A stretch of DNA of 64,000 bases from Saprospiraceae bacterium (GTDB taxonomy: Bacteria > Bacteroidota > Bacteroidia > Chitinophagales > Saprospiraceae), in assembly GCA_958295895.1 (NCBI GenBank), contig CATQHI010000011.1, positions 186,001 through 250,000 of the forward strand, in the 5' to 3' direction. A model generated the notes under the pieces. The model searched no databases and was not told where the DNA came from. It saw only the letters and a program-made list of their open reading frames with translations. Of this stretch, positions 21,011-39,453 are shown piece by piece. The position numbers and the translations under genes are program-made. Numbering within the stretch: position 1 is the stretch's first letter; the number at the start of each line of letters is the position of its first letter.

Positions 21011-21682
21011 ATGATGTCTCCCGGTATGGCCCGCTTTATGCTCCGCTTAAACGGCATGCAGTTCGTGGATCACTGTGCGGGGCAGTGGCCAAAGAAATGC
21101 GTGGTACCGACCGGCCCCCATACCACCAACCGCGACTTTCCCTACGGCATCTACGCCCGGGCGGCGGCGGGGCAGTACATCCAGTTTGTGGCCAAGTCTA
21201 CCCTCTTCAAGGGGCCGGCAGGGGCGGTGATGAAGGCGCTTGGTGGCGTGCCCGTGGTGCGCGAGAAGCGGACTAATTTCACCCAGGCCGTCGCGAAGAT
21301 TTTCGCCGAGCGCGAGGAGTTCAAGCTCTGCATCGCCATGGAGGGCACCCGTAAGCAGGTCGACCGCTTTCGTACCGGTTTTTACTGGATCGCGCGGGAG
21401 GCCGGGGTGCCGATGGTATTCTGCAAATTCGACTTTGGGAATAAGGTGATCGAGTTTTCGGAGCCGTTTTATCCTACGGGGGATGTGCGGACGGATTTCG
21501 ACTTTATTTATCGGTACTTTGATGGGGTACGGGGGCTGGTGCCGGGGAATAGTTTTGTGTATGATCCTGCGGTGTTGGAGGAGTTGCCTAGCGGGGAAGG
21601 GGGAGGTAAGGCGTCGGAGGGGGATGCGTCGGAGGGCTCAGCACAGAGGACGCAGAGGTATACACGGAGGGACACGGAGTAG
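21011..21682 (+). CDS. PlsC-like acyltransferase with repeat-derived C-terminus
   Basis: A 1-acyl-glycerol-3-phosphate acyltransferase-like enzyme. The catalytic HxxxxD motif is in TGPHTTNRDFPYG and the third block is AMEGTRKQVDRF. It starts 10 bp after the asparaginase-domain gene. From about 21595 the frame runs into repeat DNA (GGAGGGCTCA, CACAGAGG), so the last 25-30 residues (GKASEGDASEGSAQRTQRYT) are low-complexity sequence contributed by the left arm of the GxxExxY element. The original C-terminus is probably lost or shortened, but all catalytic blocks remain. Confidence 0.8.
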   Translation: MMSPGMARFMLRLNGMQFVDHCAGQWPKKCVVPTGPHTTNRDFPYGIYARAAAGQYIQFVAKSTLFKGPAGAVMKALGGVPVVREKRTNFTQAVAKIFAEREEFKLCIAMEGTRKQVDRFRTGFYWIAREAGVPMVFCKFDFGNKVIEFSEPFYPTGDVRTDFDFIYRYFDGVRGLVPGNSFVYDPAVLEELPSGEGGGKASEGDASEGSAQRTQRYTRRDTE

Positions 21683-21740
21683 ACTATGCGTCGGAGGAGG
21701 TAACCAGAGGCCCAACTTAGCGGTTGGCGGGAGGTGGAGT
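21631..21740 (+). repeat. GGAGGGCTCA/CACAGAGG repeat, left inverted copy
   Basis: Begins GGAGGGCTCA, continues with CACAGAGG-type motifs, and ends in a hairpin CCAACT-TAGC-GGTTGG (21712-21727). About 41 of the first 50 positions match the reverse complement of the copy ending at 22325. Together they bracket the GxxExxY gene. Confidence 0.75.
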
Positions 21741-21742
21741 GG

Positions 21743-22114
21743 TCAGTAGATGATGCGTTTGATGCCGTGGCGGAGGTGGGGGATGTTGAAGTTGATTAGG
21801 AGACCGAGCTTGATTTTGGCGAGGCGGAGATAGGTGAGTACCTGAGCTGTGTCTATAGGGCGTAGCTCCCGTACTAACTTCAGTTCGACGATCAATCTAT
21901 CCTCGATGAGCAAGTCCAATCGATAGGCATTAGGAACCGTAACGCCGCTGTACGTGAAAGGAAGCATCACCTGCTCTTGCACCACCAGACCGGCCTGCTT
22001 AAGCTCAATGGCCAAACACTTCTCGTAGGTAGATTCCAGTAAGCCAGGTCCCAGTGCGGTATGCACCCGAAAGGCCGCCCCACGCACCGCGTAAGTAAGT
22101 TGATTCAATTCCAT
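21743..22114 (-). CDS. GxxExxY protein (PD-(D/E)XK nuclease-like)
   Basis: A 123-residue protein with the family-naming motif in GPGLLESTYEKCL and a nuclease-like core YRLDLLIEDRLIVELKLV (D...ExK), followed by LTYLRLAKIKLGLLINFN. The biochemical role of the family is not established; it is found scattered in genomes, often as cargo next to repeats. Here inverted copies of one repeat lie on both sides (21631-21740 and 22205-22325), so gene plus repeats form a compact unit of about 695 bp. The stop is only a few bases from the hairpin of the left repeat. Confidence 0.85.
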   Translation of the reverse strand: MELNQLTYAVRGAAFRVHTALGPGLLESTYEKCLAIELKQAGLVVQEQVMLPFTYSGVTVPNAYRLDLLIEDRLIVELKLVRELRPIDTAQVLTYLRLAKIKLGLLINFNIPHLRHGIKRIIY

Positions 22115-22204
22115 TAGTCTGTTTCTCTAAGGGTGGAGCAAACATAGCGTTCTTCCCATAAACAAACAAATTGTTTGGCAAATAAATCAACACACGGGCT
22201 GAGC

Positions 22205-22325
22205 TAAACCCCTCCACACTTTCCCCCCTCCGATGACCGCAAGGTCATCTCCTCCGTTACCCTCTACCCCACCCCACTCCGTGCACCTCAGTGTTCACCT
22301 CCCTGTCCTCTGTGTTGAGCCCTCC
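22205..22325 (-). repeat. GGAGGGCTCA/CACAGAGG repeat, right inverted copy
   Basis: Reverse-strand copy ending at TGAGCCCTCC (22316-22325). Its hairpin reads GATGACC-TTGC-GGTCATC in element orientation (22232-22249), with a different stem sequence but the same pairing as the other copies. It stops 22 bp before the thiolase stop codon. Confidence 0.75.
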
Positions 22326-22347
22326 AACACCCATCAAAAACGCCGCC

Positions 22348-39340: not shown

Positions 39341-39369
39341 CGCTTACCGCAGCTCCGCTGCTGTGGGTA

Positions 39370-39453
39370 GGTTAAACCGCAGAGGGCGCAGAGATACGCA
39401 GAGGCACACTCAGCAACACCTCTGCGGTCCTCCGCGCCCTCTGTGGTTGAACC
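39370..39453. terminator. 84-bp hairpin between convergent gldH and rpoD (CACAGAGG repeat)
   Basis: Arms GGTTAAACCGCAGAGGGCGC (from 39370) and the region ending at 39453 pair over 24 bp with three mismatches. The inside pairs again (CGCAGAGG with CCTCTGCG). It ends just before the rpoD stop and probably acts in both directions. Its sequence belongs to the CACAGAGG family of the GxxExxY element. Confidence 0.7.

Follow-up and report, generated by a model that had tools for sequence, protein, structure and literature searches.

A 695-bp unit in the genome of a Saprospiraceae bacterium, in which a gene for a GxxExxY protein stands between two inverted arrays of a short repeat, is best explained as the gene-bearing member of a repeat family. 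We consider it probable (at roughly 0.57) that the GxxExxY protein maintains or spreads its own arrays by acting on them, much as is supposed for RAYT proteins and REP repeats. The unit lies in a stretch of 64 000 nucleotides of contig CATQHI010000011.1 (the window), to which all positions refer unless a locus is named. We know of no tested function for GxxExxY proteins, and a search of the open-licence literature in PubMed Central found no account of GxxExxY genes beside repeats or inverted arrays; the association suggests a partnership between repeat and nuclease of a kind not yet described.

The window unit and its predicted nuclease

The features of the unit are as follows.

21611–21682, plus strand: 3' end of an acyltransferase ORF, upstream of the gene and running into the left arm
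21628–21680, plus strand: left arm, with units CACAGAG, CGCAGAG, CACGGAG and CACGGAG; subfamily A
21712–21727, plus strand: left hairpin, CCAACT-TAGC-GGTTGG (stem search in the sequence)
21743–22114, minus strand: GxxExxY gene, 123 amino acids, PF13366 (PD-(D/E)XK nuclease superfamily; profile matches)
22232–22249, minus strand: right hairpin, GATGACC-GCAA-GGTCATC (stem search in the sequence)
22276–22328, minus strand: right arm, an inverted copy, with units CACAGAG, a degenerate unit, CACTGAG and CACGGAG; subfamily A

The two arms are 53 nt each, are 81% complementary and are separated by 595 nt. Their local alignment score is 56, and a score of 50 was reached by none of 396 flank pairs swapped between loci (from the best 80 of at least 571 relatives). 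An earlier note on this DNA, which had placed a GxxExxY gene between inverted arms, is borne out by these values, and its coordinates were right to within a few bases. Each arm is an array of a 7-nt unit, CRCNRAK (R = A or G; K = G or T), spaced at 8–13 nt and pointing inwards; CACAGAG as the sole unit was dropped, the true unit being broader. The right arm is too degenerate for the three-unit detector, which counts the left arm alone at the window. The 695-bp piece consists of the arms and the GxxExxY gene, with no second gene inside, and its neighbours, the acyltransferase (plus strand) and a thiolase (minus strand), converge on the GxxExxY gene. The end of the acyltransferase is readable in four of 12 loci: it runs on in the window and in L194, and stops at or before the arm in L193 and L198.

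Both of the hairpins described in the earlier note are present. Its further claim, that the stems covary, fared less well. Stems of differing sequence do occur at the same position in other arms of this genome (CATCGCC/GGCGATG, CAGCACC/GGTGCTG twice and GGAACGC/GCGTTCC). By the same rule, however, two of eight inner stretches (L005 and the left one of L021) have no stem, and stems as long as those of the left and right hairpins arose in 113 and 40 of 300 shuffles, respectively, so that each hairpin taken singly is within chance. Hairpin covariation is weak evidence for a kept structure and was dropped as the main evidence after the shuffle test.

The window protein matches TIGR04256 with 142 bits (cut-off 35) and PF13366 (PDDEXK_3) with 139.8 bits (cut-off 22), each over its whole length, and is a full-length member of this family. 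These are the only profiles that match it, Cas4 and other profiles giving no match; PF13366 is its sole Pfam domain, and the HUH Y1 transposase domain (Transposase_17) is absent. The residues H18, E27, D67, E77, K79, Q91 and Y95 are present. In an alignment of 82 proteins (the window protein and 81 of 89 candidate rows) E27, D67, E77, Q91 and Y95 are invariant, and H18 and K79 are kept in at least 90%. The catalytic D and the (D/E)xK that define PD-(D/E)XK enzymes are represented in this set by D67, E77 and K79, with weak fold matches. A pattern of H, D, ExK and QxxxY is characteristic of RecB/Cas4-type nucleases. The predicted structure has a mean pLDDT of 97, and its nearest solved folds are SSO0001, which we take to be a Cas4, and lambda exonuclease (best E 3e-3, TM about 0.5); no match was obtained at E 0.001 in this fold search, in which a protein listed as Cas4 ranked 12th, and a search of solved structures by sequence gave none at E 10. 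From the model we infer a compact predicted nuclease with a RecB/Cas4/lambda-exonuclease-like fold. It shares with those enzymes the H, D, ExK and QxxxY residues, but has 123 residues against about 200 and matches no Cas4 profile.

Array type and protein clade across genomes

A scan of 84 980 species genomes gave at least 571 confirmed relatives, of which the best 80 were analysed; these were ranked by likeness to the window protein and are not a random sample. Among these best 80 of at least 571, the strict detector found arrays within 500 bp of the gene in 38 loci, 23 of which have them on both sides (as inverted pairs in 22), with a density of 1.00 per kb near the gene against 0.044 far from it. 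With the broader unit, 99 inward and 25 outward arrays lie near the gene in the same best 80, corresponding to 1.93 and 0.49 per kb, respectively, against 0.042 per kb and strand far off, which makes inward arrays some 45-fold enriched next to the gene. Since the units were derived from the same loci, a motif-free comparison of flanks matters here. At a score of at least 36, inverted flanks match in 42 of these best 80 loci compared with nine of 396 swapped pairs; direct flank matches (18 of 80) also exceed the swapped pairs (nine of 396). For the family loci, full flanks were required and 22 of 29 were used. Over a set of 136 loci, four of them duplicates, 92 have an inward array, 52 have one on both sides and four have outward arrays on both sides. 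The armed loci fall under 12 phylum labels, archaea included, many of them being metagenome bins in which contigs may be misassigned. Three loci fetched later, two from plasmids and one from a viral contig, all have inverted arms of the CRCNRAK kind; seven plasmid records contain a match, of which these two were examined, and the viral contigs gave the one locus, with no match in phage records.

Arms and gene can also be followed as one piece. The elements of Nostoc (L066) and Tolypothrix (L101) lie at different places with a DNA similarity of 82%, which extends from 46 nt before the gene to 57/51 nt after it within the 3 kb of flank examined; a further match, of 58 nt, links the right side of L066 to the left side of L101. 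Compared with L101, the right end of similarity is at +49 in L057 and L063 and at +18 to +27 in L068, L076 and L078, three of the six Nostocaceae loci thus losing similarity where the right arm begins. Arms and gene are likewise common to L061/L073, L061/L080, L119/L131 and L090/L119, with flanks that are unrelated over up to 3 kb (335 nt for the left flank of L119). In most other listed pairs the similarity stops inside the gene or the match represents flanks of the same site. The pair L027/L058 was dropped as an example of unrelated flanks owing to a common repeat-rich stretch more than 1 kb downstream. In L063 (Komarekiella) the left arm is split by a hairpin-like insert.

The kind of unit differs between protein groups. 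In the LGPGLLE clade inward CRCNRAK arrays are present in 59 of 80 loci (the best 80 of at least 571), 18 of 26 in the family of the window and 12 of 21 in the genus, and outward arrays in 21 of 80 (the same best 80), eight of 26 and none of 21; a quarter to two fifths of the LGPGLLE loci have no detected inward array. Loci of the GNGFQE clade (L319–L348) have inward CRCNRAK arrays in none of 22 and instead bear RGGAT arrays, inward in seven and outward in three, inward RGGAT being found in no other group. Genes for S23 proteins (L162–L191; TIGR02436) have CRCNRAK arrays inward in none of 24 loci and outward in one, and show a 7-nt periodicity in 16 of 24, with a unit that varies between genomes. 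In 1092 background windows CRCNRAK, RGGAT and 7-nt periodicity were found in 25, 0 and 38, respectively. Both the GNGFQE and S23 loci come from the same sample of family genomes, and those with full flanks were used (22 of 30 and 24 of 30, respectively); the GNGFQE loci were picked by likeness to one protein, and a GNGFxE-like motif is present in some frame in 21 of the 22 and GPGLLE in none. These differences by group indicate that the unit goes with the protein clade, and this clade specificity supports a putative recognition of its own arrays by the GxxExxY protein.

Agreement is also seen at a finer level. Within the LGPGLLE clade (four duplicates among 136 tree rows left out) the subclass of unit (GAG, GAT or AAG) is that of the nearest relative in 60 of 87 cases, compared with a shuffled mean of 35.7. 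With relatives below 75% identity the agreement is 51 of 87 and below 65% it is 34 of 87, which is no better than chance and implies that the subclass changes fast. Repeat and protein are concordant between clades and among close relatives, and are not among distant members.

That two unrelated repeats merely happen to lie around an ORFan is hardly credible: such repeats are common in this genome, but chance would have to account for the link of array and gene across phyla, the motif-free flank matches, the clade specificity and the three further loci.

The S23 genes had been chosen as a negative control for inverted flanks and failed as such (16 of 24 at a score of at least 36 compared with three of 118 swapped pairs), because they bear inverted arrays of their own kind; they were retained as a control for the CRCNRAK unit alone. 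Their loci resemble the window unit in having a small orphan gene between inverted arrays of a short unit, and differ in the unrelated four-helix-bundle protein, in the 7-nt period and in being known inside 23S rRNA. Heptameric repeats are described upstream of S23p in an rRNA intervening sequence (PMC4990558). By analogy, the arms of the window might pair in a transcript to form a long stem whose loop holds the gene, like the intervening sequences that RNase III cuts out of rRNA, and have no role in DNA. The complementarity of the window arms agrees with this, as do the inverted arrays of S23 genes, which are known from rRNA intervening sequences (PMC4990558). We nevertheless regard it as highly unlikely, since 28 of 32 array sites examined in this genome lie between predicted genes and the unit differs by protein clade; moreover, the window protein is not an S23 protein, and a search of the window with Rfam at the gathering threshold gave no match and hence no rRNA.

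Gene-less palindromes and fixed sites

This genome contains two GxxExxY genes, the second on contig 27, and 71 matches to a three-unit array (37 and 34 on the two strands; none for the reversed pattern), which merge within 400 bp into 53 array places. For 32 examined sites the nearest arm type is A (that of the window gene) in five, B (that of the second gene) in 18 and undecided in nine; the split is soft, the window left arm scoring 38 against one B arm and B arms 39 against each other. The arms of the two genes are nearest to different palindromes. A palindrome score of at least 30 was obtained in 19 of the 32 sites, without a shuffled control. By a tally from the 44 loci in which these sites recur, 20 lie between tandem genes, eight between convergent genes, three inside predicted ORFs and none between divergent genes, with one unclear; divergent gaps make up five of the 30 gaps of at least 50 bp in the window (p = 0.053 against the absence of divergent sites). 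At L021 (1412–2310 of that locus) subfamily A arms surround not a GxxExxY gene but what is presumably a DsbA-like gene, named from its sequence.

Across genomes the arrays follow the gene. GxxExxY genes were found in 80 of 120 sampled genomes of the family, and arrays in 21 of these 80 compared with two of the 40 without the gene (p = 0.006; 20 of the 40 were listed as such and the remainder derived by exclusion). Within the genus, array matches number 0–58 in the 12 genomes that have an armed gene (one-sided in one of them, of AAG type in another) and 0–2 in the nine that do not (p = 0.001); both p-values are too small, because the genomes are related and some of the counted arrays are the arms themselves. 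Genomes were judged unarmed from the loci fetched, leaving out a partial gene in G133 (L257), which gave no match, and some further genes of other genomes, and the array pattern must begin with CACAGAG or CACAGAT and misses arrays of CGC units. The type of array often agrees with that of the arms: G125 has no GAG and 19 GAT arrays with GAT arms, and G136 has 12 GAG and four GAT arrays with GAG arms. The exceptions are G006, G116, G126 and G128; G006 and G128 have an armed gene and no array by the search pattern, and G126 has nine GAG arrays and a gene of another unit type. In G133 and G135 we found two arrays apiece and no armed gene.

The earlier note had held that arms found equally often without a GxxExxY gene, together with a lack of empty sites in relatives, would make the bracketing a coincidence. 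Arms do go with the gene across genomes, but within this genome gene-free arms are far commoner. Taken together, gene-free arms that are common here and arrays that are tied to the gene across genomes point to a gene-bearing copy with gene-less relatives and not to coincidence. The main rival reading is that the arrays live on their own, spread by some other enzyme, for instance an IS200-like or RAYT transposase, or kept as 3'-end structures, and that the GxxExxY gene is surviving cargo. It would account for arrays that outnumber GxxExxY genes in this genome, for the arms around the DsbA-like gene and for the preference for tandem and convergent over divergent gaps, which is that of harmless or terminator-like 3' elements. 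Cargo should vary, however, and yet a single protein clade keeps to a single unit type across many phyla, the GNGFQE clade and S23 genes bear other units, and arrays are few in genomes that lack an armed gene; we consider this reading unlikely.

An empty site, for which the earlier note had proposed a search, was found for a gene-less palindrome and none for the gene.

39370–39453, no strand assigned: gene-less palindrome of CRCRGAG units, between a small convergent ORF and rpoD

The palindrome is absent and the gene order the same in ten relatives (G125, G129, G132, G137, G006, G121, G133, G136, G116 and G134), in which the ends of the ORF homologue (45–71% identity) and of rpoD are 5 to 104 bp apart and no array lies between them. 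In G130 and G131 the homologue ends 669 and 306 bp off, respectively, and eight genomes gave no homologue next to rpoD; in G130, G131 and those eight there is likewise no array within 150 bp. The palindrome is best read as an insertion on the lineage of the window.

The site of the GxxExxY gene in the window can be followed through the genus, whose members include Neolewinella maritima (L053, identical to L261 of G125) and Lewinella sp. IMCC34191 (L054, identical to L243 of G130). The acyltransferase is present in all 21 genus genomes and adjoins a GxxExxY gene in ten of them, one of which is rearranged; the gene at this site contains stop codons in G123, and G124 has a decayed remnant there (L199), identified by eye. 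Recurrent insertion at this site is not needed to explain the distribution: a single origin of the ten genes is not rejected (p-AU 0.64, from a tree with few columns in which 71 of 129 inner branches are open). The window-site gene is old and vertically inherited, and recent mobility at this site is accordingly not supported. The earlier description of the unit as mobile or selfish therefore holds to the extent that arms and gene recur together in many phyla and in the three further loci, and is not supported for the window site itself. Other sites common to several species are L024/L261, L243/L245/L260 and L266/L268 in the genus and one site (six loci) in Nostocaceae.

The arms at the window site differ by species, being of CACAGAG in some and of CACAGATT or CACGGATT in others. 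Within a species, however different from the next, its left and right arms match at a score of at least 36 in eight of ten cases, compared with 19 of 90 swapped combinations. Arms that vary by species and yet fit within each species imply a concerted renewal of the arms around a gene that stays in place. Vertical inheritance at fixed sites and a conserved active site would also suit a protein that recognises the arms but limits or edits the repeats, for example by removing or resolving extruded cruciforms, and so is a keeper and not a mover. Cas4 and lambda exonuclease, the nearest folds, trim DNA, in keeping with such a role. Repeats are more numerous, not fewer, where the gene is present, and we judge this restraining role distinctly unlikely.

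Relation to known systems

On the preferred reading, in which the protein keeps or spreads its arrays, it would recognise them as duplex, cruciform or single-stranded hairpin and would cut or trim DNA there; arms and gene-less palindromes would be copied into further intergenic positions, or their sequences would be kept uniform in each genome. Recognition is supported by clade specificity; cutting and movement by the protein are what we infer. The working would resemble that of RAYT and REP, with an unrelated nuclease and unrelated repeats. RAYT genes have few copies and are vertically inherited. RAYT genes are reported to lie without exception between two REPs in inverted orientation, and REPs are also dispersed, often as inverted pairs (PMC2817692). 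The gene described here is likewise flanked by inverted copies of a dispersed repeat. The differences lie in the protein, a member of a PD-(D/E)XK family and not an HUH Y1 transposase, in the repeat, which consists of 7-nt units every 8–13 nt where that of RAYT systems is a GT(A/G)G-headed hairpin, and in the occurrence of GxxExxY arrays in both bacteria and archaea. The paper on REPINs is also said to treat REP repeats as dispersed and often in inverted pairs.

MITEs and heptanucleotide STRR sequences comprise gene-less palindromes and short-unit arrays in intergenic DNA, and both kinds of feature are found here. Unlike MITEs, the unit has no DDE transposase, as it contains no other gene, and no target duplication, which the earlier note had suggested looking for, was noticed in an unsystematic look.

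The link from clade to array offers a testable DNA substrate for GxxExxY proteins and accounts for one class of palindrome in intergenic DNA. It also suggests that REP-like populations may be maintained by nucleases outside the HUH group. A wider proposal, which we put forward only tentatively, is that GxxExxY proteins are the engines of widespread tiny DNA replicators in bacteria and archaea, each reading a clade-specific unit whose inverted arrays are spread and homogenised, with the 7-nt arrays of S23 genes as an independent second class.

Several minor observations concern the surroundings of arms and palindromes. GC-rich hairpins such as GCAGCTCCGCTGC lie outside several B-type palindromes (L010, L011, L015, L018 and 39349–39363 of the window), and in L010 the hairpin is inverted on both sides of the palindrome. 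In G131 (L202) a different gene-less palindrome, GATTGAAGGACAGAAGG..., was seen by eye between the thiolase and the acyltransferase, at the site orthologous to that of the window gene. Arms are also repeated in tandem along with adjacent sequence in L197, L211 and G116:C27:220351–221050, and the copies in L197 apparently include the end of the neighbouring gene.
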